This document shows, one piece after another, positions 19,487 to 41,488 of a stretch of DNA of 64,000 bases. The position numbers and the translations under genes are program-made. The notes beneath the pieces are model-generated. The model did not search any database, had not been told where the DNA came from, and was given only the letters and a program-made list of their open reading frames with translations. Location: contig NZ_JADQDO010000001.1 in NCBI RefSeq assembly GCF_015694465.1, forward strand, positions 248,001 to 312,000. The letters are read 5' to 3'. The DNA is from Microvirga alba (GTDB lineage Bacteria; Pseudomonadota; Alphaproteobacteria; Rhizobiales; Beijerinckiaceae). How positions within the stretch are numbered: the first letter of the stretch is position 1; each line of letters starts with the position of its first letter.

Positions 19487-20650
19487 TCAATGATATGGGT
19501 CTGCCGCGTCGCGTAATCCGTCGCCCATGAAGTTGAATGCGAGCACCACAATCACCACCGGCACGATGGGAAACAGCAGCCACGGGTGAAGCTGTACGGC
19601 AGCGAGGTTTTGCGCCTCGTTGAGCAACACGCCCCAGCTTGTGACAGGCGGACGCAAGCCCAGACCGAGGAACGACAAAGCCGTTTCGCCGAGGATCATC
19701 GACGGGATCGAGAGCGTCGCCGAGGCAATCAGGTGGCTCATGAAGTTCGGAATGAGGTGGCGCGCGATGATTCGTTTCTTGGACGCTCCCATCAGCTCCG
19801 CCGCTTTCACGAAGTCCTCTTCACGCAACGAGAGCAGCTTCGAGCGCACCGCGCGGGCGAGGCCTGGCCAGTCGAGCAGGCCGAGAATGATGGTGATGCC
19901 GAAGAAGACGAGGATCGGGCTCCAGTTCGGCGGGAGCGCCGCCGACAGGGCAAGCCACAACGGCAGTTCGGGCAATGACCGCAGGATCTCGATCATCCGC
20001 TGGATGATGTGATCGACCCATCCGCCGATATAGCCTGCGAGCCCGCCGAAGAAGAGGCCGAGCGCGAATGACACGGCGATGCCGACGATGCCGATGGTGA
20101 GCGAAATCCGCGCGCCATAGATGATGCGGGACAGAAGATCGCGCCCGAGCCGGTCGGTGCCGAGAATGAACATCGTGCTGTCTCTCGGCGGGCAGAACAG
20201 GTGCACGTTGCCCGGTACAAGTCCCCAGAACTCGTAAGCCTTGCCACGGCAGAGAAAGCGCATTGGTTGCGGCGTGGAATAATCCACCGTGTAGACGCGG
20301 CGGAAAGACTCCAGATCGAAGCTGAATTTGTAGGGATAAACGAAGGGGCCGATGAAGCGGCCTTCATGCATCAAATGAACCGGTTGAGGCGGCGCGTAGA
20401 TGAAATCGCCGTGGCGCTGTGTCTGGCTATAGGGCGCGATCACCTCGACGAACGGCACCATGAAGTAAAAGGCGAGGAGGATGAAGGCGGCAGCGACCGC
20501 CACTTTGTGTCGGCGAAATTTCCACCATGTCAGCTGCCATGAGGAGGCGCGGTAGTAGCTTTCGTGCTCGGCGCCCACCGGTTCCATCGCGCCGGGATCG
20601 AAGGCCGCGGGATCGACATAATGCTGTCTCGGCGGCGGAACCCTGTTCAT
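19487..20650 (-). CDS. Peptide-type ABC transporter permease (DppC/OppC family)
   Basis: A 387-residue inner-membrane permease, the second of a pair. After a cytoplasmic N-terminus and a first helix (VAAAFILLAFYFMVPF) comes a periplasmic segment of about 100 residues, longer than in OppC. The permease core then holds ILGTDRLGRDLLSRIIYGAR and the EAA loop (AELMGASKKRIIARHLIPN). It is the last gene of a four-gene operon with four-base overlaps throughout. Substrate not predictable beyond a peptide or peptide-like compound. Confidence 0.9.
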   Translation of the reverse strand: MNRVPPPRQHYVDPAAFDPGAMEPVGAEHESYYRASSWQLTWWKFRRHKVAVAAAFILLAFYFMVPFVEVIAPYSQTQRHGDFIYAPPQPVHLMHEGRFIGPFVYPYKFSFDLESFRRVYTVDYSTPQPMRFLCRGKAYEFWGLVPGNVHLFCPPRDSTMFILGTDRLGRDLLSRIIYGARISLTIGIVGIAVSFALGLFFGGLAGYIGGWVDHIIQRMIEILRSLPELPLWLALSAALPPNWSPILVFFGITIILGLLDWPGLARAVRSKLLSLREEDFVKAAELMGASKKRIIARHLIPNFMSHLIASATLSIPSMILGETALSFLGLGLRPPVTSWGVLLNEAQNLAAVQLHPWLLFPIVPVVIVVLAFNFMGDGLRDAADPYH

Positions 20651-21666
20651 CGCCCGCCTCCCATGCGAATGCGTGGATCGAGCCAGGCGAGCAATAGATC
20701 GGAAATCAACATCCCGATCACCGTGAGCACGGCGACGAACATGAGAATGAACCCGGCCAGAAACTGGTCCTGGCTCTTCAATGCGCTGAGCAGGATCGGG
20801 CCGACCGTTGGCAGGCTCAACACCAGCGACACCAGCACCGATCCGGAAATCAGATGCGGCAAAAGGTTTCCGATATCGGCGATGAACGGGTTCAGAGACA
20901 TGCGGAACGGATATTTCAGCAGGGCCGTGCGGGGCGCGAGGCCCTTCGCCTTGGCAGTCACGTAATATTGCTTGCCGAGTTCGTCGAGCAGGTTCGCGCG
21001 CATGCGCCGGATCATCGCCGCAGTTCCGCCAAGTCCGATCACGAGCGTGGGCACGACGAGATGCGACATGAGCGAACGGATTTTGGGCCAGGTCCAGGGT
21101 TGGTCCGCGAATTGCGCGTCATACAGACCGCCGATGGACACGCCGAACCAACGGTTCGCGTAATAGAGCAGGATTAGCGCAAGCAGAAAACTCGGCGTCG
21201 CAAGGCCGATATAACCAATGAAGGTGGCGACGTAGTCGCCGACCGAATATTGCCGCGTCGCCGAATAGATCGCGATGGGAATCGACACGAGGTGGATGAA
21301 GATCACGACGGCAAGATTGACGAGAAGCGTCAGCCATAGCGCGTCACCGACAACCTCGGTCACCGGCTTGTCGTACTCGAACGACCAGCCCCAATCGCCC
21401 TGAAGCAGGCCGGAAAAGCCGTTGGGGCCCGGCATCACGCCGATCCAGACGAGATATTGCTCCCAGGCCGGGCGGTCGAGTCCGTATTGCTTGATGAGAA
21501 ATTCAGCCTTGGCGATAGAGGCGGTTTCGCCTTGCGCCCTGAGTTCAGCGATCTGGTTGGTGAGGAAATCCCCTGGCGGCAGCTTGATGATGAAGAACAC
21601 AAGCGCCGAGATGATCAGAAGCGTTACGGCCATCGTGACGACGCGGCGCAACAGAAAGCGGATCAT
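20647..21666 (-). CDS. Peptide-type ABC transporter permease (DppB/OppB family)
   Basis: A 339-residue permease with six predicted membrane segments. It begins MIRFLLRRVVTMAVTLLIIS as is normal for the DppB family, and carries the EAA-type loop (YVTAKAKGLAPRTALLKYPF). It pairs with the downstream OppC-type permease to form the channel. Its start overlaps the stop of the substrate-binding protein gene by four bases, and its own stop overlaps the next start likewise. Confidence 0.92.
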   Translation of the reverse strand: MIRFLLRRVVTMAVTLLIISALVFFIIKLPPGDFLTNQIAELRAQGETASIAKAEFLIKQYGLDRPAWEQYLVWIGVMPGPNGFSGLLQGDWGWSFEYDKPVTEVVGDALWLTLLVNLAVVIFIHLVSIPIAIYSATRQYSVGDYVATFIGYIGLATPSFLLALILLYYANRWFGVSIGGLYDAQFADQPWTWPKIRSLMSHLVVPTLVIGLGGTAAMIRRMRANLLDELGKQYYVTAKAKGLAPRTALLKYPFRMSLNPFIADIGNLLPHLISGSVLVSLVLSLPTVGPILLSALKSQDQFLAGFILMFVAVLTVIGMLISDLLLAWLDPRIRMGGGR

Positions 21667-23591
21667 CGGCGCGCCTCTTTGGCAGCGGGCTTGCTCCAGA
21701 ACATTTCATCGAGCCGATAGATGCCGATCATCGCGGTCGGTTCCCAACTATAGATGGCCCGGTCGGGCAGGCCTTCCAGTCCGTCGCGGACGACGATCGG
21801 CTGCAGGGCTCCCGCAATCGTGCCGATGGTCCATTGGTTCTCGACGTGGTTGCGCAGCATCTCGCGCCAGGCATCGGTTTGCACGAGGTCGTCCGCGGTA
21901 TCCATCCAGACATTGTAGAGGTCGAGCAGACGCTTTGCTTCCGGCAGGTCCACCGCCTCACCGTTCTTGCCCTTTGTCTCGATGTATTGGCCCCATTTCG
22001 GCCAGGCGAGATTGTCCTGCCGCATGGGTGCGAATTCGGTCGGAGGCATGACGTCGGTCGGGATCGCGTTGTCGAACCCCTGGCCAGCCGTCATGATCGG
22101 CAGGCCTGCGAAAGCGCGGTTGCGCAGGACGGTCCGGTCCTGTGGCTTCACGAAGAGCCTTACGCCGATTTCGCGCCAGAACTCGCCGATCAAGGTCAAC
22201 CCGTCCACGATCAGACTGCTTTCGCCATCCGTCTCGACGATGATCTCAAGCTCGCGGCCATCGGGCAAGAGGCGGATGCCCGCTCCGTTGCGCTTGGTCA
22301 GCCCGATATCATCGAGAAGCTTTGACGCGAGGATAGGATCATAGTGGGCATTGGTACTGCGCAGCTCTGGCGAGAAAAGCGGGCTCTCCGGCATGACCGT
22401 ATTGTTGCCCTCGGTTCCCAAACCGAAGAGCAGCGCGTTGTTCAACGTCTTGCGGTCGATGCCGAAGGACAATGCCCTGCGGAAGCGCGCATCGCGATTG
22501 AGTTTGCGCCAGACCGGGTCGGTGGTGTTGAGGTTGGGATAGAGCGCCAGCTCGGTCCCGCGCGCGTAGGGCCAGAGCAGTGTCCTGTATCGATGCGCCT
22601 TCTCGCCCTCCTTCAGCACCGGCACATCGTTCATCGACAGGCCGCGGAACAGGAGATCGGCTTCGCCCGCATTGGCTTTTGCCGCAAACAATCCACCGGA
22701 CGCGACATCCATGATGATGCGGTCTACATAGGGAAGCTGGTGCCCCTTGCTGTCGACGCGGTGGTAATAGGGATTGCGCTCGAAGATGAAGCGCGTCGCG
22801 GGCGACGCATTGATCACGCGCCAAGGCATGAGAGTCGGCAGATCGGGATTCGTCTGCTCCTTCATGTCGTCCATGCGGTTGTGCAGGGCCGCCCAGGATT
22901 TCAGTTTCTGTTTCTTCGCCAGTTCTTCGAGCTGCGCCTTGTCGGCATATTTCGCGTGGAAGCGCTTCAGATAGGCGGATGCGCGGTAGATGCCGGGATC
23001 GAGCGGCCCCGCGAGTTGGGGCAGGAAGCGCGGGTTGGGACGGTCCCAGGAGTATCGGATGGTGCGCGCATCGAGCACCTCGAAGCGCGGCAACTTGCCG
23101 TCCACCATCATGAATTCGGGTGGGCCCGCGGGGGAGAGGTCCTTGTTGAGGGCCACATCCTCCCAATAGTAGCGGAAATCCTCCGCCGTGAAGGGAGATC
23201 CGTCCGACCAGCGATGGCCGGCGCGCAAGGTGAAGGTGATAACGCGGTCGCCGTCGCTCTCGACCTTCTCGACAAGATCCGGCTTGAGTTTCACGTCTCG
23301 GTCGTAGCCGACGAGCCGCGTGTAGGTGTAGGCGGAGATGTAGCGAATGTCGCGGGCGCGAGGCACGAGGGTGACGATGTCGCCGCCATAATGGCCGTCG
23401 CGGCCGCCCTCGGGATCGGAGAGAAGCGGCGTCTTCGGAATACGCTCCTCAAGCGGCGGCATCTTGCCCTGAAGCACCTTCTCCGCGAAGAACGGCGGCT
23501 CACTGAACCGTTCCGCGAAGGCCGGCAGCGACAGGAGAACGAAAACGGCGGCCAGACACACGGTCTTCGTGCTGATCCTCGTCAACATCAC
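21663..23591 (-). CDS. Periplasmic substrate-binding protein of peptide-type ABC transporter (SBP_bac_5)
   Basis: A 642-residue extracytoplasmic solute-binding protein with a Sec signal peptide (cleavage probably after LPAFA near residue 26). The family blocks are clear: TFTLRAGHRWSDGSPFTAED near residue 115, FERNPYYHRVD in the middle and FRRALSFGIDRKTLNNALLFG near residue 380. It is longer than typical OppA/DppA (about 540), matching a subgroup that also differs from YejA. The substrate is unknown. Second gene of the operon. Confidence 0.9.
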   Translation of the reverse strand: MMLTRISTKTVCLAAVFVLLSLPAFAERFSEPPFFAEKVLQGKMPPLEERIPKTPLLSDPEGGRDGHYGGDIVTLVPRARDIRYISAYTYTRLVGYDRDVKLKPDLVEKVESDGDRVITFTLRAGHRWSDGSPFTAEDFRYYWEDVALNKDLSPAGPPEFMMVDGKLPRFEVLDARTIRYSWDRPNPRFLPQLAGPLDPGIYRASAYLKRFHAKYADKAQLEELAKKQKLKSWAALHNRMDDMKEQTNPDLPTLMPWRVINASPATRFIFERNPYYHRVDSKGHQLPYVDRIIMDVASGGLFAAKANAGEADLLFRGLSMNDVPVLKEGEKAHRYRTLLWPYARGTELALYPNLNTTDPVWRKLNRDARFRRALSFGIDRKTLNNALLFGLGTEGNNTVMPESPLFSPELRSTNAHYDPILASKLLDDIGLTKRNGAGIRLLPDGRELEIIVETDGESSLIVDGLTLIGEFWREIGVRLFVKPQDRTVLRNRAFAGLPIMTAGQGFDNAIPTDVMPPTEFAPMRQDNLAWPKWGQYIETKGKNGEAVDLPEAKRLLDLYNVWMDTADDLVQTDAWREMLRNHVENQWTIGTIAGALQPIVVRDGLEGLPDRAIYSWEPTAMIGIYRLDEMFWSKPAAKEARR

Positions 23592-25453
23592 GCTGCCTCC
23601 TCTGCGGCCTGGCTTCCCAGACGCACCTTATGACCGGGCTCGATCTCTTTCATGACACCCGCCTCGCCCTGCAGCAGGCGGAAGGGGGCGGGCCATTGCG
23701 AAGGATTGGAGAAACGGTCCGCGCGCAACTTCTCGAAATCGAGCGGCCGGTCGATGTCAGGATCCGGCACGGCGGCGAGCAGTGCTTGCGTGTAAGGGTG
23801 AACCGGGTTCCGGAAGAGAGAAGTCTTTGGCGCTTCTTCGACGATGTAGCCCCGGCACATGACCGCAATCGTATCGGCGATGTAGTCCACCACCGCGAGA
23901 TTGTGCGACACGAAGAGATACGACAGCCCGAGCGCCGATTGGAGATCCTTCAGCAGGTTCAGCACCTGCGCCTGCACCGACACATCAAGGGCGGATACCG
24001 GCTCGTCGCAGAGCAACACGCGCGGTTCGAGCGCGAGCGCCCGCGCGATGCCGAGACGCTGGCGCTGGCCGCCGGAGAAGGAATGCGGGTAGCGCCGCAA
24101 GGAACGCTTATCGAGCCCGACCATGTCGAGCAATTGCGTGGCCCGCGCGTAGCGTTCGTCCGGAGTGCCGATGTCGTGGATGCGCAAGGGCTCGGTTAGG
24201 ATTTCGTAGACCGTCATGCGCGGATTGAGCGACGAGAACGGGTCCTGGAAGATGAACTGCACGGAGCGGCGATATTCGGTGAGCGCGGCACCCTCCAGCT
24301 CGAAGACATCGCGCGGACCCGTGCCATTATCGAACAGAACGCGCCCGGAATCCGGATGCATCGCCCGCATGATCATTTTGGAAACGGTCGTCTTGCCACA
24401 GCCTGACTCACCGACGAGGCCGAGCGTCGTGCCCGTCGGCAGGGAGAGGTTGACGTCGTTGACGGCCCGGATTGTCCTGATCTTGCCGGAGAACCAGCCC
24501 GAGCGGAGGGTATAGCTCTTCGTCAGATTCTCTACTTTCAGGATCGGGCCCTTGGGTTCGATCCGCTCGGGTGCGTGTGCGTTCGCGAGAGTGGCGCTTT
24601 TGATTTCCCGGATCGGAGTCAGGCGCTCGTCGACGGCCATGGCGAAGCGCGGCACGGCGCGCATGAGCGCCTGGAGATAGGGGTGTTGCGGGTTGCGGAA
24701 AATGTCTTCCCGCGAGCCCGCCTCCATGACCCGGCCGCGATACATGACCACGACCTCGTCGGCGACATTCGCCACCACCCCGAGATCGTGAGTGATGAGC
24801 AGCACCGACATGCCGGTTTCGGTTTGCAATTCCTTGATGAGATCGAGGATCTGGGCCTGCGTCGTCACGTCGAGTGCGGTCGTCGGTTCGTCCGCGATGA
24901 GAAGGGCAGGGCGGGTGATGAGCGCCATGGCGATCATGGCGCGTTGCCGCAACCCGCCGGAGAGCTCGAACGGGTACGTGCTCAAGGCACGTTTCGGGTC
25001 GGGAAAACCCACCCGGGCCAGCGCATCGATTGTCCGCTCGCGCGCCTCGGCGCGGCTGACACGGGCATGGATGACAAGCGCTTCGGAAATCTGATCGCCG
25101 ATGGTGTGGAGCGGCGAGAGCGATGTCATCGGCTCCTGGAAGATCATGGCGATACGTCCGCCGCGCAGCGCATGCATGGCGTCGCTCTCGGCGCCAAGCG
25201 CGGCAATATCGAGCGTGGCGTTGCTGACCGCATCATTGAAGACGATGGAGCCGCCCGAGATGTGGGCCTTCTTCGACAGGATCTGGAGAATGGCTTGCGC
25301 CGTCACGGATTTACCGGAGCCGGATTCCCCCACGAGAGCCACGGTCTTGCCCCTCGGAATGTCTAAAGACAATCCGTTCACCACCCGGAAGTCTCCGGTC
25401 TCGGTCATAAAATCGACCGTCAGCTGACGGATCGACAGGAGCGGCGTATCCAT
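23588..25453 (-). CDS. Peptide-type ABC transporter ATPase with two nucleotide-binding domains fused
   Basis: A protein of about 621 residues carrying two complete ABC ATPase domains in one chain, equivalent to OppD plus OppF (as in YejF or GsiA). The first domain has GESGSGKSVTAQA and LSGGLRQRAMIAMAL; the second has GESGCGKTTVSKM and FSGGQRQRLGIARALALEP. Each ends with the RNPxHPYxQAL block typical of oligopeptide importers. The ATG at 25453 is directly preceded by GGAGGAGCTC, an ideal ribosome site; the frame extends upstream to 25495 without a better start. It is the first gene of the operon, an order less usual than binding-protein-first. Confidence 0.93.
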   Translation of the reverse strand: MDTPLLSIRQLTVDFMTETGDFRVVNGLSLDIPRGKTVALVGESGSGKSVTAQAILQILSKKAHISGGSIVFNDAVSNATLDIAALGAESDAMHALRGGRIAMIFQEPMTSLSPLHTIGDQISEALVIHARVSRAEARERTIDALARVGFPDPKRALSTYPFELSGGLRQRAMIAMALITRPALLIADEPTTALDVTTQAQILDLIKELQTETGMSVLLITHDLGVVANVADEVVVMYRGRVMEAGSREDIFRNPQHPYLQALMRAVPRFAMAVDERLTPIREIKSATLANAHAPERIEPKGPILKVENLTKSYTLRSGWFSGKIRTIRAVNDVNLSLPTGTTLGLVGESGCGKTTVSKMIMRAMHPDSGRVLFDNGTGPRDVFELEGAALTEYRRSVQFIFQDPFSSLNPRMTVYEILTEPLRIHDIGTPDERYARATQLLDMVGLDKRSLRRYPHSFSGGQRQRLGIARALALEPRVLLCDEPVSALDVSVQAQVLNLLKDLQSALGLSYLFVSHNLAVVDYIADTIAVMCRGYIVEEAPKTSLFRNPVHPYTQALLAAVPDPDIDRPLDFEKLRADRFSNPSQWPAPFRLLQGEAGVMKEIEPGHKVRLGSQAAEEAA

Positions 25454-25484
25454 GAGCTCCTCCAATGGCCTTGAGCATAACGCG

Positions 25485-27416
25485 TCAGGTCCCAACCGTG
25501 ATCCTGTCTGGGTTACGAAACAACTCGTCTATCCGCAAGAAATGGATGCCGCTTGCGGCGAAATAGGCCATCAGCCGCTCGCAGAACGACCAGATCGCGT
25601 CGTCGTGGATGAGATGATGGGTCAGGACGCCGATCGGCTCGTTCCTGTCCGCCGTTCCCTCGACGCGTCGGTCAACCGCCTCCGCGAGTCTGGCGACGGT
25701 CCTTTCGGGCTCAACGAGGCTGCGCGAGCCATGCCAATCGATCGGGTCGATATGGGTGTTGATCTGAAGCAGATTTTTGGTCGGGTGCGGCGTGTCCCGA
25801 TCCTTGAAGGTTGAAAGGGCCTGATAGCCTTTGCGAGGCAGGAAGGGCACCAACCCGGTTGAAATCCGGTTCCAGGGCGGCACGAAAACGGGTAGCAGCT
25901 TGTCGCCCAGGGCCGCCTTTGCGGTCTGCAATGCCTGTCCAGCCTCGTCGGCCATGGCCTCGACGGGACGATGATCGCCGAACTCGGCCTTCTTCTCGCC
26001 CTTCGGCGCGTAATTGGCGTGGCTCGCCCCGTGGACGAGCGCGAAGACATTGCCTTCAGTTTCCAGACGCTGGACGAGAGAGGGGTTCAGGGCTTGCGGG
26101 ATCGCGGCGAGCGCCATTCCGGCGTCATACCGACGAGCGAGGCCGAGAAGGCGTTCCAGCGCGGGTGTATGCGCCACCGCGTCGTCATCTCGCCACCAGA
26201 AACCGATGGGGCAACCCCTATCCTTCGCGCGATTGATCGCCTGCGAAAGCTGCGACCAGTCGAAGGTCCGTTGTCGCGCTGGCGCAGCGAGGTCGATACC
26301 CTCGACGATGGCGACGCTTTGCCGCGCCCCGTCGAGGGACAGATCGGGAGCCTCCGACGAGACGCGCGCAAGCCCCCCGCGGACGGCTTCGGCGAGGCGC
26401 CCCGGCGACAGGATGTCTTCGGGGATGATTTCGGCAAGGCCGATGGCCTTGAGGCGCTCGGCGCGCAGACGTTGCTCCGTCTCGTGGCCCGCTTCGAATG
26501 GCACAAGCACCGGCCTCACACCGGCGCGGAGGATGTCGACGACCGTGTTGTAGCCCGCCTGACTGACCGAAAGCTTGGCTTTGGATAACAGAGCGCGAAA
26601 ATCAGGCCGCGCTCGTTCCACGCTTGCGTGGGGGGGGGCTCCCGCCCGAAGCGATTGAACATCCGTCTCCGCGACACCCGGTCCGATCAGGATGCGCCAG
26701 GACCTGTCCGGGATGAGGCGCGCCGCCTCGATGCTCGCGCGATAGAGCGGAAGACTCGCGGCGCTCGAGCCTCCCGAGACGACGATGCCGTTTCGCGCAT
26801 CGTCGGGGACAGGCGCGTCGTTCTCGTCCACATAGCCGGTATATCGCAGCAGGGGGCGGATCTCATCGTCCACGGGCCAGGACGCCTCCAGCGGAGCGAG
26901 CCTCGGGTCGCCATGGACAAGCACGGCATCGTAATCCCGAATAAGCCGCGCATGAATCTCGGCAACCCGTTCGGGCTTTGTCGGGGCGACGAGAATATCG
27001 CGGATCGAACACAAGACGAGCGGAGGGGGAGACTGGCGACGCGCTTCATCGACGAGCGCGCCGAATTCGTTCGCGAGCACGCGGCGGCCGAAGGGGAAAA
27101 GCTCGGTGATGAGAATGTCTGGTCGGGTGGCGTGAAAGGTCTTGAGCAGAAGATCGCGGCGTTCGGTCAGGCGCTTTTCATCGATTGGCGCGCCGCTTTC
27201 GTCCAATAGCGCCCTGAAGTCCGTGCCGACGGTTTTCACGGGCGGCAGCTGAACGAATGAGACGCCATCAAGTGCAATCAGCTGTATCCGGCTTCCGCCG
27301 GAGACGAGCGTGATCGCATGCCCCGCTTTCGCGAAGGCCCTCGCCAAGGCGGCGGCTCGGGTCAGATGGCCAGCCCCGAGAAGATGCGTGACGGCGATCA
27401 GGACGCGCATGCTCAT
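25485..27416 (-). CDS. Glycosyltransferase fused to polysaccharide deacetylase-like domain
   Basis: A 643-residue fusion. Residues 1 to about 375 are a GT-B glycosyltransferase related to MurG/GT28-like and COG4671 proteins: VTHLLGAGHLTRAAALARAF at the N-terminus, and VSQAGYNTVVDILRAGVRPVLVPF as the donor-site block around residue 285. Residues about 400-643 form a divergent deacetylase-like domain with WWRDDDAVAH near residue 408 (metal-type Asp pair), VHGASHANY near 461, VPPWNRIS, and THHLIHDD near the C-terminus. An enzyme adding a sugar and then trimming it, or acting on a neighbour, would fit, but that is inference. Last gene of a four-gene minus-strand run; starts with an ATGA overlap. 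Confidence 0.8.
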   Translation of the reverse strand: MSMRVLIAVTHLLGAGHLTRAAALARAFAKAGHAITLVSGGSRIQLIALDGVSFVQLPPVKTVGTDFRALLDESGAPIDEKRLTERRDLLLKTFHATRPDILITELFPFGRRVLANEFGALVDEARRQSPPPLVLCSIRDILVAPTKPERVAEIHARLIRDYDAVLVHGDPRLAPLEASWPVDDEIRPLLRYTGYVDENDAPVPDDARNGIVVSGGSSAASLPLYRASIEAARLIPDRSWRILIGPGVAETDVQSLRAGAPPHASVERARPDFRALLSKAKLSVSQAGYNTVVDILRAGVRPVLVPFEAGHETEQRLRAERLKAIGLAEIIPEDILSPGRLAEAVRGGLARVSSEAPDLSLDGARQSVAIVEGIDLAAPARQRTFDWSQLSQAINRAKDRGCPIGFWWRDDDAVAHTPALERLLGLARRYDAGMALAAIPQALNPSLVQRLETEGNVFALVHGASHANYAPKGEKKAEFGDHRPVEAMADEAGQALQTAKAALGDKLLPVFVPPWNRISTGLVPFLPRKGYQALSTFKDRDTPHPTKNLLQINTHIDPIDWHGSRSLVEPERTVARLAEAVDRRVEGTADRNEPIGVLTHHLIHDDAIWSFCERLMAYFAASGIHFLRIDELFRNPDRITVGT

Positions 27417-28549
27417 GCTTCAATCTTCGACAGGATCGAGACGAGCGCCGTGCGCAGCCGCACAGAGGCCTGCTCCAGACTACGCTCCTCCACAACAAAG
27501 CGACGAGCGGCGGAGCCGAGGCGCCGTCTCCTGTCGTGGTCCAGGAGGAGCGTCCTCACCGCATCGGAAAAGGCGTTGGCGTCTCCAGGTGGCGTCGTCA
27601 GCAGCCCGGTCTCCCCATCCTCGACCACGCTCGCGACGCCGCCATAGGCTCCCGCCACAACCGGGCATCCGAAGAGTTGGGCTTCCAGCAGGACCATTCC
27701 GTAGGCTTCGTTGACAGCGGGCCAGACAAAGAGATCCGCTTGTTCGTAAAGCTCGCGCAACCGCGCCTTGCTCTCGACCTGTCCGTGAAAGCGTACACGC
27801 TGGCCGAATGGCGCAAACAACCGTGTGACTTCGCCTTGCGCCGCGCCGTCCCCGACGATGTCGAGCGTCCAGGGTTGGAGGCGCAGGTTTTCGAGTGAGG
27901 CCGCGAGGGTCCGGTACGAGGCAAGCTTGTCGCCCTCACGCATCATGGCGACGGCGAGGAGACGCGGCTCTGCATGATTGCGAGGAGGCTGCGTAGGCAC
28001 TTGCGGCCACTCCCGCGCGTCGAGAAAAGGCGGCAGGTCGAAGAGGGCCTGATGGGACGGTCTCGCCGCGTCCAGCGCCTCGCGGTCGAGCGCCGTCATG
28101 ACGAAGATCGCGTCGGCGCGGTCAAGGGCTGCTTCGGCCCCCTGATGAGCGAAAGACCAGGGGCCGTCAGCGCGCTTTGCTGCTCTTGATCCTTCCGCGA
28201 TGACATAGGGAATGTGCAGGGCGTCGGCGACGCGAGGGCCGATCCAGTCCGGCGCTTTATAATAGACGTGGTAGGTGAACCAGAGGCGCGGCCGCCGATC
28301 CTTCGGGAGGTCGCGGTATCGCGTGATCAGGCCTGACGCGATCTCAAGCGATTGCTCTCTGATCCGCTCCTGGGCCGCCGGGTCTCCCGCCTTGTCGAGG
28401 GTGCGCAGGTCGCTGGAGAGGACGGGAGGAAAGCCCGCCTGATCCAGCGCCTTCATCAGCAGGCGCGCCATGGTGCGGTCGCCCGAAGGGGAGGGGGAGT
28501 CCGGGCTCTTCAAGGGTGCGTAGAACGCGACGGGCCTTGAGATGTTCAC
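27413..28549 (-). CDS. Glycosyltransferase, GT4 family
   Basis: A 378-residue GT-B glycosyltransferase. The N-terminus (ISRPVAFYAPLKSPDSPSPSG) matches a glycosyltransferase subgroup that works in surface-glycan clusters. The C-terminal donor site shows LFVWPAVNEAYGMVLLEAQL and PVVAGAYGGVASVVEDGETG, the classical GT4 E-x7-E pattern. It overlaps both neighbours by four bases, so it is translated together with them. Sugar specificity unknown. Confidence 0.9.
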   Translation of the reverse strand: MNISRPVAFYAPLKSPDSPSPSGDRTMARLLMKALDQAGFPPVLSSDLRTLDKAGDPAAQERIREQSLEIASGLITRYRDLPKDRRPRLWFTYHVYYKAPDWIGPRVADALHIPYVIAEGSRAAKRADGPWSFAHQGAEAALDRADAIFVMTALDREALDAARPSHQALFDLPPFLDAREWPQVPTQPPRNHAEPRLLAVAMMREGDKLASYRTLAASLENLRLQPWTLDIVGDGAAQGEVTRLFAPFGQRVRFHGQVESKARLRELYEQADLFVWPAVNEAYGMVLLEAQLFGCPVVAGAYGGVASVVEDGETGLLTTPPGDANAFSDAVRTLLLDHDRRRRLGSAARRFVVEERSLEQASVRLRTALVSILSKIEA

Positions 28550-29820
28550 GCGGGCACCGGCTCTCTCACGCTGATTTCGATCGCGGCTCGGAGCCGCCTT
28601 TCGAGATCATCGATGCCTCCCTCCATGGAGAAGTCGTGCCGCAGACGCTCGAAGGCAGCTGTTCCGAGGGCTTGGCGCCGTTCAGGGTCGCGGGTCAGGA
28701 GGTTCAGCGTGTTCGAGAGCGCTTCCCAATCCCCCGGCGGAACGAGTTGTCCCTCAATGCCGTCGCGGATGAATTCGGGAATGCCGGCAAAATCCGTCGC
28801 GACCAGCGGAAGCTTTTGGCTTGCCGCCTCCATGAGGACGTTCGGCAACCCGTCCCGGTCGCCGGACGCGGCCTTCTTGGAAGGGAGGACGAACATATCG
28901 GCCTCGCGCAGCAGCGCGATGATGTCGGGTTGCGCTTTCGCGCCCAGAAACGCCACCTTGTCGGCGATGCCGGCGTGCTGTGCCTGCGCCTTCAACACGT
29001 TCATCAGCTCCCCGCCGCCCACATGGGCGAAGCGCCAATGCAGGCCCGGAGGAAGTGCGGCGAGCGCCTTGATCAGGTCGTCGAAGCCCTTCTTCGCCAC
29101 GGCTCGCCCGACCGAGACGATGCGGACGGGATCGGCGGGGTTCGAGCCATCGCGCGCGGAGTGAGCCTCCGGCGGCGCGGGAAAGCGGGAAAGGTCGAGC
29201 CCGTGATAGACCAGAGAGACGTGATCGGGCGAGGGGCTCAATGCCTTGAGGTTCTCCGCGCCCTGCGCCGTGCAGGTCACACCCCAGCGGGCCTCCGCGA
29301 GCTTTTCGCGCTTTTCCCAATCCGGTGTGGTCCAGATGTCCTTGGCGTGGGCGGAGAAGGTCCATGGCCTGCCCGTCAGGAGAGCCGCGTAGCGGACGAC
29401 GGAAGCGGGCGTGTGGAGATAATGCACATGCAGATGCCCGACCTCGGCCGGCATCTCGCGGGCCATGACGAAAGCCTGCCCCAAACGCCGGACCCGGTTA
29501 GCTGTGAAGTCACGCCGCAGGTCTCTCCAGAAAGCGCGCGTCAAGGCTCCGAAGCGGGGTTGCTTCAGGCTCCAGAACGCCCCGCGGAGCACGCGCAGGG
29601 GCTCCTCGTAGAGATACTCGGGCAGATAGGTGACGGGCGCCTTGATCTTCCGGTTCATGGGATGCACGGCCCGCTCCGTCGGATGACGGAGAGACCAGAT
29701 CTCAAGCTCCAGGCCACGCTCTTCGAGCGCGAGAATTTCCTGGACGATGAACGTCTCGGATAGGCGCGGATATCCTTTTACAACGACGGCGATCCGTCGG
29801 GCTTCGCTCGAAGGGTGCAT
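28546..29820 (-). CDS. Glycosyltransferase, GT4 family (colanic-acid-type)
   Basis: A 424-residue GT4 glycosyltransferase resembling enzymes annotated as colanic acid biosynthesis glycosyltransferases. It starts with IAVVKGYPRLSETFIVQEIL, a block usual in this subgroup, and has SVGRAVAKKGFDDLIKALA and ASGDRDGLPNVLMEAASQKL in the donor-binding half. It begins eight bases after the upstream glycosyltransferase gene and overlaps the next by four bases. Probably the second sugar-adding step of the locus. Confidence 0.9.
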   Translation of the reverse strand: MHPSSEARRIAVVVKGYPRLSETFIVQEILALEERGLELEIWSLRHPTERAVHPMNRKIKAPVTYLPEYLYEEPLRVLRGAFWSLKQPRFGALTRAFWRDLRRDFTANRVRRLGQAFVMAREMPAEVGHLHVHYLHTPASVVRYAALLTGRPWTFSAHAKDIWTTPDWEKREKLAEARWGVTCTAQGAENLKALSPSPDHVSLVYHGLDLSRFPAPPEAHSARDGSNPADPVRIVSVGRAVAKKGFDDLIKALAALPPGLHWRFAHVGGGELMNVLKAQAQHAGIADKVAFLGAKAQPDIIALLREADMFVLPSKKAASGDRDGLPNVLMEAASQKLPLVATDFAGIPEFIRDGIEGQLVPPGDWEALSNTLNLLTRDPERRQALGTAAFERLRHDFSMEGGIDDLERRLRAAIEISVREPVPA

Positions 29821-29828
29821 CCTGAATG

Positions 29829-31106
29829 TTACTCGGCCGCCTGATGAAAGGCGGGGACATGGGTGTGGTTCGGCTCAATCAAAGCCATAAGCCGCGCCTG
29901 CACCTGGTCAAGACCGTCGAGGAGGCCGGGGATCACCACTTCTGACGGCCGTGGCTGCGAGGACAGGCTCCGGAGTGCCGCCGCCATGCGCTCGGGCGTG
30001 CGCGGTTCGTTGTAGTCGCTCAGCATCCGGACGAGACCGAGCCGCTGCGCTTCTACGGCGCGGATATACTGCTCCAGCCGGGGGCGGGTGCGCGGCACGA
30101 TCAGGGTGCGCTTGTCGAAAGACAGGGCTTCGCAAAACGTGTTGTAGCCGCCCATGGCCACGATGGCCTCCGCCTTCTGCATCAGCAGTTCGATCTTGTT
30201 GTCGAAGGACAGAGCGTCGAGTTTCGATTGCCGGTTTATGCGCTCCATGAAGGAGCGTCGCTTGTCCCGGTCAATGAAGGGACCGAACAGGATCAACGAC
30301 GGCATGTCCAAGGCCTTGTCGGCCTCGTATGCCGAAATCACCCAATCGATCAGATCGTCCCCGTCACCACCGCCGCCGGTGGTCACGAGAATGAAGGGCT
30401 GCCTCGTGATCTTCGGATAGCGTGTCAGGGACGGGGTTGCGGGCATTTCCCGGCGCAGATACCCGGTGTAGGTGATGCGCCGCTCGACATGGGGCGGAAG
30501 GTCCAGGGCGGCGAGGGGCTGATAGACGTCCTTGAGGCCGTAGACCCAGATCTCGTCATAATAGCGAATCAAAGCTTCCTTGGCGTCCTTGCGCTCCCAC
30601 TCCGGAACCAGGAGGGCGGGTTCGTCCATGACGTCGCGGATGCCCAGGACAAGGCGGCAATGGGAGCCATGGAGATAGTCGAGGGCGGGCAAAACCTCGC
30701 CGCGGAAGCCCGTCGGCTCCTTGTCGACGATGAAGACATCGGGCCGGAACGATTTGACGGCCTGCAGAATCAGGTCCTGGCGCAGGCCGACCGCTTCCTC
30801 CAGGTCCACATTGAGGTTCAGGCTGCGATAGTCGCCATCCGGCAGCTTCGTCACGCCGGGAATGCGAATGTAGTCGACCCCGCTGCCGAACTCGAAATTT
30901 CCGATGACCGGCGAGCCCGAGATGATCACGATGGAGGCATTCGAGCCGTCCTCGACGATCGCGTTCGCGATCGCCCGAGACCGGCGTAGATGCCCGAGCC
31001 CGAAGGTATCGTGACTGTAAATAAGGACTCTCGCGCCGTCGTAGCGCCCGGCCGCAGCCTTTCTGGGGGCGGCGTCGGTCTTGAAGTCCATGACCAGGTC
31101 TGCCAT
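29829..31106 (-). CDS. Predicted glycosyltransferase (COG4671-like)
   Basis: A 425-residue protein of the predicted-glycosyltransferase group COG4671. After a short leader it reads ARVLIYSHDTFGLGHLRRSR and later VTTGGGGDGDDLIDWVISAY and AIVAMGGYNTFCEALSFDKR, a glycine-rich linker and an acceptor/donor site analogous to MurG and GT28 enzymes. It shares ancestry with the first half of the 643-residue fusion at the other end of this run. First gene of the minus-strand operon, divergent from the ABC-exporter-like gene 162 bases away. Confidence 0.85.
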   Translation of the reverse strand: MADLVMDFKTDAAPRKAAAGRYDGARVLIYSHDTFGLGHLRRSRAIANAIVEDGSNASIVIISGSPVIGNFEFGSGVDYIRIPGVTKLPDGDYRSLNLNVDLEEAVGLRQDLILQAVKSFRPDVFIVDKEPTGFRGEVLPALDYLHGSHCRLVLGIRDVMDEPALLVPEWERKDAKEALIRYYDEIWVYGLKDVYQPLAALDLPPHVERRITYTGYLRREMPATPSLTRYPKITRQPFILVTTGGGGDGDDLIDWVISAYEADKALDMPSLILFGPFIDRDKRRSFMERINRQSKLDALSFDNKIELLMQKAEAIVAMGGYNTFCEALSFDKRTLIVPRTRPRLEQYIRAVEAQRLGLVRMLSDYNEPRTPERMAAALRSLSSQPRPSEVVIPGLLDGLDQVQARLMALIEPNHTHVPAFHQAAE

Positions 31107-31268: not shown

Positions 31269-33986
31269 ATGGAAAAAAGTCTTTTTCGGTACATCTGGAC
31301 GCATTCGAAACGCGACCAAATGATCGTCTGCGCAGTGGTTCTTGCCTCGCAGCCGTTCTATTTCCTGTCGCTCGACCTGCCTCGCCAGATTGTGAACCAG
31401 GCGATCCAGGGTGAGGCTTTCAAGGACGGAAACGCCACCGCGCCATTCCTGAAGCTGACCTGGCATTGGCCGGACTGGCTCGGTGGGGGCTCGACCCCTC
31501 TCTTCGAAGGTTTTCAACTCAGTCGTGTCGGCCTGCTCCTCGGGCTGTCCTGCCTTTTCCTGCTTTTCGTCATCATCAATGGCGCGTTCAAATACTGGAT
31601 CAACGTCGCCAAGGGCGTGCTGGGCGAGCGGATGCTGCGCCGCCTGCGCTTCGACCTCTTCACGATGGTGCTGCGTTTCACGCCGGACGCCCTGCGCACG
31701 GTGAAGTCGTCCGAGACCGCCACCATCATCAAGGATGAGGTGGAGCCGATCGGAGGGTTTATCGGGGATGCCTTCATCACCCCGGTCTTCCTCAGCATGC
31801 AGGCCTTGACCGCCCTGTTCTTCATCATGGTGCAGAATGTCTGGCTCGGACTGATGGCGCTCGCCGTGGTGGCGATTCAACTGATCATCATCCCTCGGCT
31901 GCGGCGTGAACTGCTTGTCCTCGGCAAGGAGCGCCAGCTGGCCTCCCGCGAGTTGGCGGGGCGCGTCGGCGAGGTTCTCGACGGCATCGAGGTTGTGCAT
32001 GTGCACAACGCCTATGACTGGGAGCGGGCCGAGATCGGCAACCGGCTTTTCACGCTCTACGATCTGCGCGTCCGGATCTACAACCGCAAATTCGTCGTCA
32101 AATTCCTCAACAATTTCCTGTCCCAGCTGACTCCGTTCTTCTTCTACGCGGTCGGCGGCTATTTCGCGTTGCGCGGCACGCTCGATATCGGTCAGCTCGT
32201 GGCCGTCATCAGCGCATATCGCGAGTTGCCGCCGCCCTTGAAGGAGTTGATCGACTGGGATCAACAGCGTCTCGACGTGCAGGTGAAATACGACCAGGTC
32301 ACCCAACACTTCGCCGACGAGCGGCTAGCCCCGCTGATCGAGGCGCGCCTTGCCGAAGTCCAGGACGAGCCGCTTACCGGGCTGCTTGTGGCGGAAGGCC
32401 TCCGGGTGACGGACCCTCATGGCGGCATGGTTCTGGATGGAGCCTCGTTCCGCCTGGAACTCCCTGTTCATGTCGCCATGATCGCCAACGGGGGCGCAGC
32501 CGCGAGCGTCATGGCGCGGATCATCGCTCGGCGCATGCCCGGCTTCGGCGGGCAGATCCGCATCGGCAATCGCGATCTGATGCAGCTTCCGACGTCCATC
32601 GCTGGCCGTCGGATCGCCTATGCGGGTCTCGACCCGATCCTCTTTCCCGGCAGTATCCGAGAGAATCTCATTTATGGCCTGCGCGCACGGCCGGTCCAGA
32701 ATGCCGAGGACGCCAGGCGTAAAGCCGATCGCCGGATCGCCGAGGCCATCCGGACGGGAAATCCGCTCGACGACATCGCCGATCAATGGATCGATTACGA
32801 TCAGATCGGCGTGAGGGACGAGGACCATCTGGATCACGTGCTGGTCGAATTGCTGAATCGCATCGGCATGGGCAACGAAATCTACCTGTTCGGCCTGGCG
32901 GGCTGGATCGACCCCGAGCGCTATCCGCACGTGGCGGAGCGGATCGTCGAGGCACGCCGGCGTTTGCGCGAAACGTTCCAGGCGAGCGGAATGGCGGATC
33001 TCGTCGTCCCCTTCGATCCGGACCGCTATAACGACCAGGCGACGATCGCCGAGAACCTTCTGTTCGGCGTGCCGGTCGCCGATGAATTCATGGGGCGCAG
33101 CCTTGCATCCAACAGTGATTTTAGCGGGGCGATCGATCGAGCCGGGCTGACGGACGATCTCGTCTCGATGGGTTTGCAGATCGCCGAGACCATGACCGAA
33201 ATCTTCGAGGGTCTGCCGCCGGGCCACTCCCTTTTCGAGCAGTTCTCCTTCATCGGGGCGGACGAATTGCCCGACTTCGAGGCCATCCTGCGACGTCGCA
33301 GGAGAACGGAGGCCCTCGGCAGGGAAGACCGGACCAAGCTTCTCTCCCTGCCGTTGGATTATATCGAGGCGAGGCATCGTCTCGGGCTGCTCGACGACGA
33401 GCTGAAACTCCGCCTGGTACGGGCTCGCGCCCTCGTGCGGGAGACACTGGAAAACGCCGAGGTGAGGGGGGTGGAGTTCTATGATCAGGAGCGCGTCTGC
33501 GCCGCCGCGCCCGTGCGGGACAATCTTCTTTTCGGCCGCGTCAGCTACCGCGTCGCCAATGCCCGGCAGCGTGTCGCGGAGGCGATCTCAACCGTTGTCC
33601 GCGAACTCGGATTGCGGGAGGACATCGAGCGGATCGGCCTCGACCATCAGGTCGGTACCGCCGGACGCCTCCTGACGTCGCAGGAGCGCGCGAGCATCAA
33701 TCTTGCCCGCTGTCTGGTCAAAAAGCCGGACATCCTCGTCATCGATGGTGCGCTCGCGCCCTTCGATGAGACGCGCTCCCAGCAGATGATTGACCTTTTG
33801 ATCGATCTTTTTGAACAACAAAGCCTGTTCATGGTGCTTCCGAACGATCGACAGGCCGATAACTTCGATATTCTGATGCGATTTCGCGACGGACAGATTA
33901 CGACAGAAGAACGAGGCGGTCCGGCTCCCGGGGTGAGAAACACCAAGCCGGAGGCCGCACCACGGATAGCAGGAGAGGTGGCATGA
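31269..33986 (+). CDS. ABC-exporter-like protein with degenerate nucleotide-binding domain
   Basis: A 905-residue protein. Residues about 1-340 form an ABC exporter transmembrane domain with several hydrophobic segments and an intracellular-loop region (ERQLASRELAGRVGEVLDGI). The rest aligns with an exporter ATPase but lacks its key residues. The Walker A site at 406-413 reads ANGGAAAS, with Ala412 where the Lys should be. The Q-loop reads AGLDPILFPGSIRENLIYG, with Leu454 for Gln. The signature is LTSQE (802-806), and Walker B ends in Asp826 followed by Gly instead of Glu. About 300 extra residues separate Q-loop and signature and repeat the post-Q-loop motif: ENLIYG (465-470), ENLLFG (595-600), DNLLFG (751-756). 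A normal exporter half is about 580-600 residues. ATP hydrolysis is unlikely; a scaffold, regulator or substrate-gating role is inferred. Stop overlaps the next start by four bases. Confidence 0.85.
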   Translation: MEKSLFRYIWTHSKRDQMIVCAVVLASQPFYFLSLDLPRQIVNQAIQGEAFKDGNATAPFLKLTWHWPDWLGGGSTPLFEGFQLSRVGLLLGLSCLFLLFVIINGAFKYWINVAKGVLGERMLRRLRFDLFTMVLRFTPDALRTVKSSETATIIKDEVEPIGGFIGDAFITPVFLSMQALTALFFIMVQNVWLGLMALAVVAIQLIIIPRLRRELLVLGKERQLASRELAGRVGEVLDGIEVVHVHNAYDWERAEIGNRLFTLYDLRVRIYNRKFVVKFLNNFLSQLTPFFFYAVGGYFALRGTLDIGQLVAVISAYRELPPPLKELIDWDQQRLDVQVKYDQVTQHFADERLAPLIEARLAEVQDEPLTGLLVAEGLRVTDPHGGMVLDGASFRLELPVHVAMIANGGAAASVMARIIARRMPGFGGQIRIGNRDLMQLPTSIAGRRIAYAGLDPILFPGSIRENLIYGLRARPVQNAEDARRKADRRIAEAIRTGNPLDDIADQWIDYDQIGVRDEDHLDHVLVELLNRIGMGNEIYLFGLAGWIDPERYPHVAERIVEARRRLRETFQASGMADLVVPFDPDRYNDQATIAENLLFGVPVADEFMGRSLASNSDFSGAIDRAGLTDDLVSMGLQIAETMTEIFEGLPPGHSLFEQFSFIGADELPDFEAILRRRRRTEALGREDRTKLLSLPLDYIEARHRLGLLDDELKLRLVRARALVRETLENAEVRGVEFYDQERVCAAAPVRDNLLFGRVSYRVANARQRVAEAISTVVRELGLREDIERIGLDHQVGTAGRLLTSQERASINLARCLVKKPDILVIDGALAPFDETRSQQMIDLLIDLFEQQSLFMVLPNDRQADNFDILMRFRDGQITTEERGGPAPGVRNTKPEAAPRIAGEVA

Positions 33987-34429
33987 CCCTTGAGGCCGAG
34001 GTTCAATCCTTGCGGCAGGTGCCGATGTTCCGGGATATCGATCCGGCCCGTCTGAAGCTTCTCGCCTTCACCAGTGAGCGGGTGCAGTTCGCCGACGGGC
34101 AGCGCTTCTTCTCGCAGGGCGATGCTTCCGACGCGGCTTACGTGATCCTCGACGGACGGGCGAATGTGCTGCTCAACACGCCCCACGGCGAGATCCAGGT
34201 GGCGGAACTTTCAGGCAACGCCCTTGTGGGCGAGATGGGCATTCTGTCCGATACGCCGCGCTCCGCCACCATCATGGCCGCCGAACCAACGACCGCCTTG
34301 CGCATCGACAAACGGGTTTTTCTCGAACTTTTGGCGCAATTTCCGCAGATGTCACTGGCTGTCATGCGGGAATTGGCGCAGCGCCTGGAGCAGACAAATG
34401 CTCAGCTTGTCGCACAATCGTCATCCTGA
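33983..34429 (+). CDS. Stand-alone cyclic nucleotide-binding domain protein
   Basis: A 148-residue protein that is almost entirely one Crp-type cyclic-nucleotide-binding domain. The phosphate-binding cassette is well kept: G83-E84, then P92-R93-S94-A95-T96 (LVGEMGILSDTPRSAT), so binding of a cyclic nucleotide is plausible. There is no helix-turn-helix, so it cannot act as a Crp-like transcription factor by itself. The C-terminal helix (LAVMRELAQRLEQTNAQL) could mediate dimerisation or contact the ABC-exporter-like protein, whose gene it overlaps by four bases. It probably controls that protein in response to cAMP or cGMP; this is inferred from the gene fusion-like arrangement. Confidence 0.88.
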   Translation: MTLEAEVQSLRQVPMFRDIDPARLKLLAFTSERVQFADGQRFFSQGDASDAAYVILDGRANVLLNTPHGEIQVAELSGNALVGEMGILSDTPRSATIMAAEPTTALRIDKRVFLELLAQFPQMSLAVMRELAQRLEQTNAQLVAQSSS

Positions 34430-34586: not shown

Positions 34587-35768
34587 GTGTGGGAAAAAAT
34601 GATGCCGACCAATGCGAGCACGCTGCAAGGCGCGACGCTGCCGCAGCCTGTCCAGGTTGCGCGCACGAGCTATGGGCGACACCAAGTCTCTTCCGGCAAA
34701 GACGGCGCCGGGTTGCAGAAAGAAGGTGTATCGAACGAGGGAGCCGGGCCCGTTGGAAAATGGGCGCGCGGCCATACGTGCCGTCTCCTCGCAGCGGCGG
34801 GCCTGATGATCGGATTTCAGGGGATGACGGCGGCTCCCGCCGCGGTCGCGACCTTGCCCAGCGCGCTCATGGCGAGACCGTTGGCTCCGGCGTTGCCAGA
34901 TGTCGACGTCCGCGTGGATGATACGCCCGCGCTCGCAAGCAATCCCGAGCTCTTCAGCGCGATCCTCGAAACCGCGTTTGTGCGCCCCGAGCAGCCTCAG
35001 GCGACGCCTGTCGCGCCATCCGTTGTCGCGGAATATCCGGTCGAAAACCCCGATGAGATCATCCCCTTCAGCGGGCGGAATGTGCCCCGGTGGCTGGTCC
35101 ATTCCATACTTAAAGCAGCCCGCGTGACGGGGGTCGACCCGGTTTACATGATGACGCTCGCCGACGTGGAATCGAGCCTTTCGCCGGAGGCCAAGGCACC
35201 GACCTCGACCGCCGAAGGCCTGTTCCAGTTTATCGACAGCACTTGGCTCGAGACAGTGTTCAACCACGCCAGCGATTACGGTTTCTCGGCGGCGGCGGAA
35301 GCCATCCGCATGGTTGATGGAGACCCGGTCGTCGACAACAGAAAGAACCGCGAATGGATCATGAGCCTGCGCTGCGATCCATATTTCTCCGCGCTCATGG
35401 CGGGTGAACTCATCAAGGATGTGGAGCGCGCATTACAGGCGCAGGGCGAGAGGGAGCTGTCCGAGGCCGAACTCTACATTGCCCACTTCCTGGGAGCGGG
35501 GAGCGCCGTGCGGTTCCTGGAGGTCCTGGACAAGGACCCCAACATGAAGGCGTCGAAGCTCTTTCCCAAAGCGGCCAGGGCCAATACCGGCTTGTTCATG
35601 GAAGGTCGGGGCCGAAAGCGACGCGCTGTCAGCGTCGCCGAGTTCTACAACAAGATCGATTCAAAGATCGTCAGGCGGATGGACCGCTACGAAGATATAG
35701 GCCCTTACCTCGCGGAGGTGTCGCGCATGTCGGAGAGGACGCAACAGGCGAACGCTGTCGTGCGGTGA
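34587..35768 (+). CDS. Lytic transglycosylase (SLT domain), membrane-anchored or secreted
   Basis: A protein of up to 393 residues cleaving peptidoglycan glycan strands. The catalytic-domain pattern is visible: WLVHSILKAARVTGVDP, then ADVESSLSPEA with probable catalytic Glu195, then TSTAEGLFQFIDSTW, and YIAHFLGAGSAV near residue 305. The N-terminal 65 residues are polar and basic and precede one hydrophobic stretch (about 67-88), which may be an uncleaved anchor or a late signal peptide. A GTG at 34587 or ATG codons at 34599/34602 could be the start. It lies downstream of the cyclic-nucleotide gene by 157 bases and could open the wall for the surface-glycan machinery. Confidence 0.85.
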   Translation: MWEKMMPTNASTLQGATLPQPVQVARTSYGRHQVSSGKDGAGLQKEGVSNEGAGPVGKWARGHTCRLLAAAGLMIGFQGMTAAPAAVATLPSALMARPLAPALPDVDVRVDDTPALASNPELFSAILETAFVRPEQPQATPVAPSVVAEYPVENPDEIIPFSGRNVPRWLVHSILKAARVTGVDPVYMMTLADVESSLSPEAKAPTSTAEGLFQFIDSTWLETVFNHASDYGFSAAAEAIRMVDGDPVVDNRKNREWIMSLRCDPYFSALMAGELIKDVERALQAQGERELSEAELYIAHFLGAGSAVRFLEVLDKDPNMKASKLFPKAARANTGLFMEGRGRKRRAVSVAEFYNKIDSKIVRRMDRYEDIGPYLAEVSRMSERTQQANAVVR

Positions 35769-41314: not shown

Positions 41315-41359
41315 GGTGGTCCCCCAAATCGCGCCTGGAATGCCCAGGTCAAATGAAAG

Positions 41360-41380
41360 TTTATAACGTTCCGTAACGTT
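41360..41380 (-). promoter_or_regulatory. Candidate promoter and operator dyad of the RTX gene
   Basis: On the minus strand a near-consensus -10 (TATAAA, 41365-41360) lies about 46 bases before the RTX start. Directly upstream, overlapping its edge, is AACGTT-ACGG-AACGTT, two copies of a self-complementary hexamer ten bases apart. A regulator bound there would occlude or contact RNA polymerase. The -35 region is poor. Confidence 0.4.
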
Positions 41381-41488
41381 GTGCGATTGGGCTCTCACAA
41401 GCAAGATGGTGCAGGAAATTTTTTGTGTGTGGACCTCTCCGAAGGTGGGTCTAAGCCCCCTGAGGGGCCTCCCGGCCCAATGGGGACC

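Follow-up and report, generated by a model that had tools for sequence, protein, structure and literature searches.

What becomes of an ATP-binding cassette (ABC) exporter when the residues that serve ATP hydrolysis are lost? In ordinary exporters, the membrane domain is coupled to ATP that binds where the two ATPase domains meet, and a protein that keeps the fold without the motifs cannot be expected to do this. We address this question for a gene of Microvirga alba, located at positions 31269..33986 (forward strand) of a 64,000-nucleotide stretch of contig NZ_JADQDO010000001.1, which is called here the window and whose numbering is used throughout. The gene has an ATG start and an unbroken frame encoding a 905-residue ABC-exporter-like protein with a degenerate nucleotide site. 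The best explanation, to which we give a probability of roughly 45%, is that the protein represents an exporter fold switched by a cyclic-nucleotide-binding subunit rather than by ATP hydrolysis, with a role in the export or control of a surface glycan.

The 905-residue protein descends from ABC exporters and has their fold, but it lacks the catalytic features of a working exporter. Its transmembrane domain (residues 1–350, 31269..32318) is modelled with long helices and is as normal as an earlier note on this DNA had claimed, with a match to Pfam model PF00664 (ABC_membrane) over residues 92–315 at 58.1 bits (cut-off 28). PF00005 (ABC_tran) matches residues 390–508 at 31.3 bits (cut-off 25), and the first half of the ATPase-fold domain (residues 370–470, 32376..32678) is modelled with a predicted local distance difference test score (pLDDT) of 89–96 over residues 371–470. 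Solved ABC exporters match the protein both by sequence and by fold.

The nucleotide site carried by this fold is degenerate. Specifically, Walker A reads ANGGAAAS (residues 406–413, 32484..32507), with Ala412 in place of Lys, and Leu454 (32628..32630) falls at the Q-loop Gln column when the protein is aligned with two canonical exporters from its own genome. The signature is LTSQE (residues 802–806, 33672..33686), and Walker B (residues 822–827, 33732..33749) ends in Asp-Gly, with Gly827 replacing the catalytic Glu. All of these residues are as the earlier note had given them, and the alignment adds one more loss, a Pro at the H-loop His column. Normal ATPase activity has almost certainly been lost in this protein.

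The ATPase fold is also interrupted by an insert between the Q-loop and the signature (residues 475–780, 32691..33608). This insert, recognized earlier as about 300 extra residues, splits the profile matches of the protein into two parts, at about residues 85–487 and 745–880. In the monomer model its pLDDT values range from 72 to 96 and mostly fall between 88 and 96, with the lowest confidence near the insert start. The motifs ENLIYG (residues 465–470), ENLLFG (595–600) and DNLLFG (751–756) had been taken as a sign that the middle of the ATPase domain was copied twice, and one half of this proposal stands. Residues 552–637 (unit 2, containing ENLLFG, 32922..33179) and 709–793 (unit 3, containing DNLLFG, 33393..33647) constitute a duplicate pair of about 85 residues, as revealed by a profile–profile comparison with a probability of 99.1% (E 6e-19) in which the best of 30 column-shuffled control profiles reached 1.8%. 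Unit 1 has only a short motif around SIRENLIYG in common with units 2 and 3 (probabilities of 37% and 70%), and a third full copy was therefore rejected. Two pairs of residues at equivalent repeat positions, R563/R720 and N596/N752, are invariant in the 96 non-redundant rows of the family alignment (window protein included), as is G756 of unit 3.

The insert was also compared with known domains. A Pfam search at E values up to 10 added nothing, and the idea that the insert is a known domain was rejected. The insert profile, searched against the PDB at E values up to 1, yielded no nucleotide-binding protein and just two weak matches; those to CpcN (1.7e-5, with no single stretch passing) and to a glutathione transferase (0.68) were both rejected as chance.

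Is this protein a decaying gene or a maintained one? Orthologues with 66–79% identity are present in all 36 other Microvirga genomes searched, or 37 of 37 when the window's own genome is counted. Searched with the insert profile, 84 of the 249 genomes in the order proved to have a family member, as did 31 of 398 in the phylum, and every match falls within the same class (Alphaproteobacteria). Named holders include Microvirga, Methylobacterium, Enterovirga, Camelimonas, Reyranella and Rhodospirillaceae. In the sequence sets behind the family-wide figures, the window's genus is over-represented, and so are sequences retrieved through conserved patterns of the insert, of which the best 80 of 472 were used.

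Within the genus, the ratio of nonsynonymous to synonymous substitution rates (dN/dS) has a median of 0.137 for the ABC-like gene (251 of 253 pairs, 23 sequences). By part, the median is lowest in the membrane domain (0.089); the two ATPase parts stand at 0.209 and 0.127 and the insert at 0.155 (251 pairs). Thus, the ABC-like gene is under purifying selection in all parts, in accord with the earlier view of an unbroken, maintained frame. Furthermore, none of the 36 aligned Microvirga orthologues keeps either the Walker A Lys or the Walker B Glu, the two residues whose presence in most close relatives the earlier note had named as evidence against its proposal. Because the motif loss is common to the genus and accompanied by purifying selection, it is due neither to chance nor to decay. 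The existence of a conserved family with lost ATPase motifs is strongly supported.

Family members are also carried by plasmids: 262 of 72,556 plasmid records match at E values up to 1e-60, mostly from Rhizobium (144) and Sinorhizobium (80). In the plasmid records listed or viewed, the usual name of a family gene, where one is given, is ‘ABC transporter ATP-binding protein’ or something close to it; one Ruegeria record uses ‘cyclic nucleotide-binding domain-containing protein’. The copy in Sinorhizobium meliloti 1021 (within pSymB 832723–853384) is split over two frames, and several other plasmid records match the family in two pieces, although most among the matches listed do so in one. A gene called SMb20813 is named as the msbA homologue of S. 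meliloti in the part of PMC10945364 drawn on here, and it may be the family copy found in this analysis. No description of the family was found in the literature searched, a scope that does not extend to subscription papers.

Beyond the genus, the motif loss takes a different form. The motif loss that the earlier note proposed to check for conservation holds across the aligned Microvirga orthologues, but among 158 aligned family rows, which include the window's own copy once, 42 have Lys412 and 34 have Glu827; 30 have both, and a single row has the trio of Lys412, Asp826 and Glu827. Of the 96 non-redundant rows, 6 have the Gln of the Q-loop and 11 the His of the H-loop at the respective columns, and an LSGGQ signature is present in one of 159 rows. 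Many deeper sequences (Rhodospirillales-type, Reyranella and others) still show the pattern GxxxxGK in Walker A, and in them Walker B reads Asn-Glu, with Asn for Asp. Since Lys and Glu are kept in part of the rows, motif loss is graded across the family; the motif columns are uncertain in the most divergent fused group (L071–L077). A quick tree, rooted on two of the five canonical exporters from the same genome and with long branches meeting, has six changes between Lys and no Lys, which indicates that Lys loss is clustered and nothing more.

The earlier note had suggested that the protein might represent a new mode of gating or a scaffold. The strongest clue to either, overlooked at that time, is a small protein encoded directly downstream that is fused to its ABC-like partner in 14 loci elsewhere. 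The gene (33983..34429, forward strand) overlaps the stop of the ABC-like gene with its start and encodes a 148-residue cyclic-nucleotide-binding (cNMP) protein that matches PF00027 at 69.9 bits and no other domain in a Pfam scan.

To describe the distribution of this partner, we use a set of 142 loci (L039 to L190) with distinct family genes, obtained from 149 by dropping identical copies; L009 to L038 were left out for their short flanks. The flanks vary in length, with medians of 5.1 kb upstream and 6.2 kb downstream and smallest values of 1 and 168 bases. A cNMP gene lies directly downstream on the same strand in 115 of the 142 loci and is fused to the C terminus of the ABC-like protein in 14 (from 11 genomes), giving 129 of 142. 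The other 13 all belong to a more distant paralogue group (paralogue B, described below), 12 of them from the window's genus plus L089. Annotated records agree, with a cNMP gene beside the family gene in Mesorhizobium, Rhizobium leguminosarum and S. meliloti and a fusion in Ruegeria conchae.

Such proximity is uncommon in the window's own genome, where 2 of 15 exporter-type membrane domains fall within about 2 kb of any of eight cNMP domains. One of the two is the locus under study, and the other is a pair on another contig, about 1.2 kb apart on opposite strands. The cNMP protein also keeps its phosphate-binding cassette, which in cNMP domains is defined by Glu and Arg: Gly83, Glu84 and Arg93 are present in 126, 116 and 125 of 127 rows, respectively. 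In one fused relative (L097), the cNMP part (about residues 881–1022) is modelled at pLDDT 82–97. The ABC-like protein and the cNMP protein are very probably partners, and in the two-gene forms they would be expected to meet in a physical complex.

The ATPase site is unable to work as usual and the companion protein reads nucleotides. The simplest joint explanation, therefore, is that the cNMP subunit took over the switch. If this model is correct, the former ATPase domain, rebuilt by the duplicated insert, would serve as a conformational adaptor. The cNMP protein, encoded by the next gene or in the same chain, would act on this adaptor, conceivably by docking on the insert. A bound cyclic nucleotide would then switch the transmembrane domain between states, and the output might be a path opened for a glycan, a lipid-linked glycan or an ion, or a signal to neighbouring glycosyltransferases. 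Gating by a cyclic nucleotide falls somewhat short of an even chance in our estimate, and the more sweeping statement, in which the exporter fold no longer binds and hydrolyses ATP and depends instead on a subunit, separate or fused, that binds a cyclic nucleotide, is put forward more tentatively still. The ligand and the cargo named here are likewise what the gene content would suggest.

In some lineages the operon may also supply and remove the signal. A class III cyclase is encoded in 24 of the 142 loci, and in 18 of these it lies on the same strand and starts within 3 kb of the ABC-like gene, including two loci of the window's own genus (L046, L135); the remaining six are farther off or on other strands. 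The cyclase domain scores over the Pfam cut-off in the two representatives scanned. A metallo-beta-lactamase (MBL)-fold hydrolase is encoded in 28 of 142 loci and carries an HxHxDH motif in 23 of 23 aligned sequences. The order ABC-like, cNMP, MBL, cyclase is found in seven loci (L049, L079, L092, L093, L095, L104 and L177). In these lineages the cyclase would make the ligand and the hydrolase could destroy it, so that the fullest form, a four-gene operon, would make, read and remove its own signal controlling glycan export. At one locus (L085:4364–6115), the cyclase downstream of the cNMP gene has a 2Fe-2S ferredoxin-type domain in the same chain, and its signal might thereby depend on redox state.

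Several observations weigh against a switch run by a cyclic nucleotide. No cyclase lies within 3 kb downstream in 124 of the 142 loci, and the MBL protein scores 48.1 bits with a cyclic-nucleotide phosphodiesterase model (cut-off 400) but 69.9 bits with one of RNase Z (cut-off 293), both values being far too low to pass. Neither the paralogue B genes nor the plasmid copy of Methylobacterium radiotolerans have a cNMP gene beside them. By analogy with HetC (see below), the ligand of the cNMP domain may be something other than a cyclic nucleotide, such as guanosine tetraphosphate (ppGpp). With the Walker A Lys in 42 of 158 rows, 30 of which also have the Walker B Glu, deeper lineages may still bind ATP and perhaps even hydrolyse it slowly. 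Finally, the best conserved part across the whole family is the membrane domain, not the insert, with a mean column conservation of 0.60 compared with 0.45–0.54 elsewhere.

The alternative that survives best is that the protein transports nothing and is a scaffold or sensor, a membrane anchor that passes a cyclic nucleotide signal to glycosyltransferases, much as SUR regulates a partner channel. Glycosyltransferases are encoded in 97 of the 129 loci with a cNMP protein, and the loss of ATPase motifs and the cNMP partner fit this role as well. However, the transmembrane domain is the most conserved part and has the lowest dN/dS, a pattern that fits a membrane path or a membrane partner at least equally. 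We regard this alternative as unlikely, though not by far.

A second alternative is that the protein is the degenerate half of a heterodimeric exporter, or that it borrows an ATPase from an unlinked canonical half-transporter or a neighbouring importer. Exporters with one degenerate site are well studied (PMC7756269, in the sections consulted). Some relatives keep Lys and Glu, and the window's genome holds other exporters, with an ABC_membrane match at 15 places, the window protein included. The loci themselves were searched with a profile of the five canonical exporters of the window's genome (three of which have an LSGGE signature), which recovered five of five in a positive control. It matched 18 open frames besides the family in the 142 loci, and 10 of these were scanned, giving one full exporter, seven frames with oligo_HPY, the importer-type ATPase domain, and two with ABC_tran only (L039, L087). 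The other eight frames span 123–459 residues and are thus too short for a full exporter. A full canonical exporter is therefore found in the flanks of one locus of 142 only (L072, 609 residues), and the seven oligopeptide-importer ATPases, which would suit the borrowing model, are in L046, L079, L081, L082, L098, L101 and L181; in L079 and L101 about 100 bases at most separate the importer ATPase from the ABC-like gene downstream.

Paralogue B was also considered as the canonical half of a heterodimer. This protein of about 850 residues is present in 36 of 37 Microvirga genomes, and it was fetched from 12 of those 36. The own-genome copy is at L039:8441–10990 (contig C18), and the group also comprises L059–L066 and L068–L070. 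Because paralogue B, the only partner within the family, is equally degenerate at the nucleotide site, it was rejected for this role. Moreover, the window protein has an ATPase-fold domain of its own, and the window's importer has its own permeases. Together these findings make a heterodimer or a borrowed ATPase improbable, although an unlinked partner may exist.

Paralogue B is informative in other respects. The two paralogues, A being the window's type, are 36–40% identical over about residues 520–889 and 22–28% over the first 475 residues, so the insert is the part most kept between them. An MBL-fold hydrolase follows paralogue B directly in 12 of 13 B loci, which also carry a WecA-like sugar-phosphate transferase and sugar epimerases. 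In the one Microvirga genome without paralogue B (locus L046), a cyclase follows the cNMP gene of the A copy. Elsewhere in the window's genome, a 316-residue protein (L058:5411–6358) has an ABC membrane domain (43.8 bits) and no ATPase domain; its neighbour is an FtsH-like protease gene, and it was rejected as a split form. Frames at L057 and L067 resemble the membrane domain of the 905-residue protein (34–35%) and have no Pfam match.

A weak or unorthodox ATPase, in which the insert repeats rebuild a nucleotide site and other residues replace Lys and Glu, is very improbable: the Arg and Asn that never vary at matching positions of the two repeats and the GxxxxGK and Asn-Glu motifs of deeper sequences would suit such a site, but the insert has no Pfam match and no nucleotide-binding protein was among its PDB matches. 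A vestigial exporter kept by operon structure alone, as the two-frame copy of S. meliloti 1021 might suggest, can hardly be squared with a gene that is present in 37 of 37 Microvirga genomes, has invariant residues and is under purifying selection over its whole length.

The proposed link between the cyclic-nucleotide switch and a surface glycan draws on the gene neighbourhood. Four genes on the reverse strand precede the ABC-like gene. A conserved neighbour, divergent from it, encodes a glycosyltransferase with GT28 C-terminal and MJ1255-like features (29829..31106). Next come two glycosyltransferases of GT1/GT4 type (28546..29820, EpsE-like below the model's cut-off, and 27413..28549) and a 643-residue protein with a GT28 C-terminal domain (25485..27416). 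Across loci, the glycosyltransferases of the two main clusters mostly point away from the ABC-like gene, 145 of 151 in one cluster and 137 of 149 in the other. On a Mesorhizobium plasmid, the order is three glycosyltransferases, a methyltransferase, the ABC-like gene, the cNMP gene, the MBL gene, a polysaccharide deacetylase and a glycosyltransferase, with a nucleotide sugar dehydrogenase one gene past the last of these. Domains, motif loss, selection and neighbours thus agree with the earlier description of an ATPase-dead exporter-like protein in a glycan gene cluster.

Another conserved neighbour is an oligopeptide-type ABC importer on the reverse strand (19487..25495), composed of a double ATPase (23588–25495), a binding protein (21663–23591) and two permeases (20647–21666 and 19487–20650). 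S. meliloti RCAM1750 and R. leguminosarum WSM2304 likewise have importer genes next to their family member. The importer may act in the same pathway as the family. Downstream of the cNMP gene lies an SLT-domain (lytic transglycosylase-like) protein gene (34587..35768, forward strand; PF01464, 26 bits, cut-off 21.3), which neighbours the family in 27 loci, all of the window's genus. Near the locus, a UDP-glucose/GDP-mannose dehydrogenase family protein (36172–37479, reverse strand) would fit a glycan containing uronic acid. The window also encodes two RTX calcium-binding repeat proteins (38717–41404, reverse strand, and 9781–11655, forward strand).

The names in current records hide both the lost ATPase motifs and the usual nucleotide-sensor partner of this family. 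If gating by a cyclic nucleotide is true, the conformational switching of ABC proteins can be rewired to a different ligand, and cyclic nucleotide signalling would be linked to surface glycans in many alphaproteobacteria, including plant symbionts. Since motif loss is graded in the family, its members would make it possible to trace how such a change came about.

How, then, does this family compare with known systems? CFTR and SUR are ABC folds that serve as a channel or a regulator and not as a pump, and both still bind ATP. The cNMP protein of the window matches TIGR03896 (‘Bacteriocin-type transport-associated’), whose members go with ABC exporters, at 40 bits, far under the cut-off of 161, and no bacteriocin genes were seen among the neighbours scanned. 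In its membrane and ATPase domains the 905-residue protein is, by sequence, like type I ABC exporters of the MsbA/ABCB kind, and Foldseek aligns its model with MsbA, TmrAB, PCAT1 and P-glycoprotein at E values of about 1e-13 to 1e-16, with a large overall root-mean-square deviation. Unlike those exporters, the family has lost its catalytic motifs and gained an insert of about 300 residues with an internal duplication, as well as a cNMP partner.

In exporters with one degenerate site, such as TM287/288, TmrAB, ABCC1 and CFTR, catalytic residues are lost while the transporter is maintained, and one site stays active, according to the portions of PMC7756269 used here. In contrast, no canonical site would arise in this family from a homodimer or from pairing with paralogue B. 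A further system for comparison is HetC of Nostoc, a peptidase-type ABC exporter that needs a cNMP-type domain, and this domain is protected by ppGpp and not by cyclic AMP (PMC10986499, in the sections available). According to those same sections, the cNMP domain of HetC is N-terminal, and the protein also contains a C39 peptidase and an ATPase residue that is essential. Like HetC, the family joins an exporter fold and a cNMP domain in the same chain or operon (129 of 142 loci). Unlike HetC, it carries the cNMP domain at the C terminus or on a separate protein and has lost its ATPase motifs, and the window protein has no match to a C39 peptidase in the Pfam scan.

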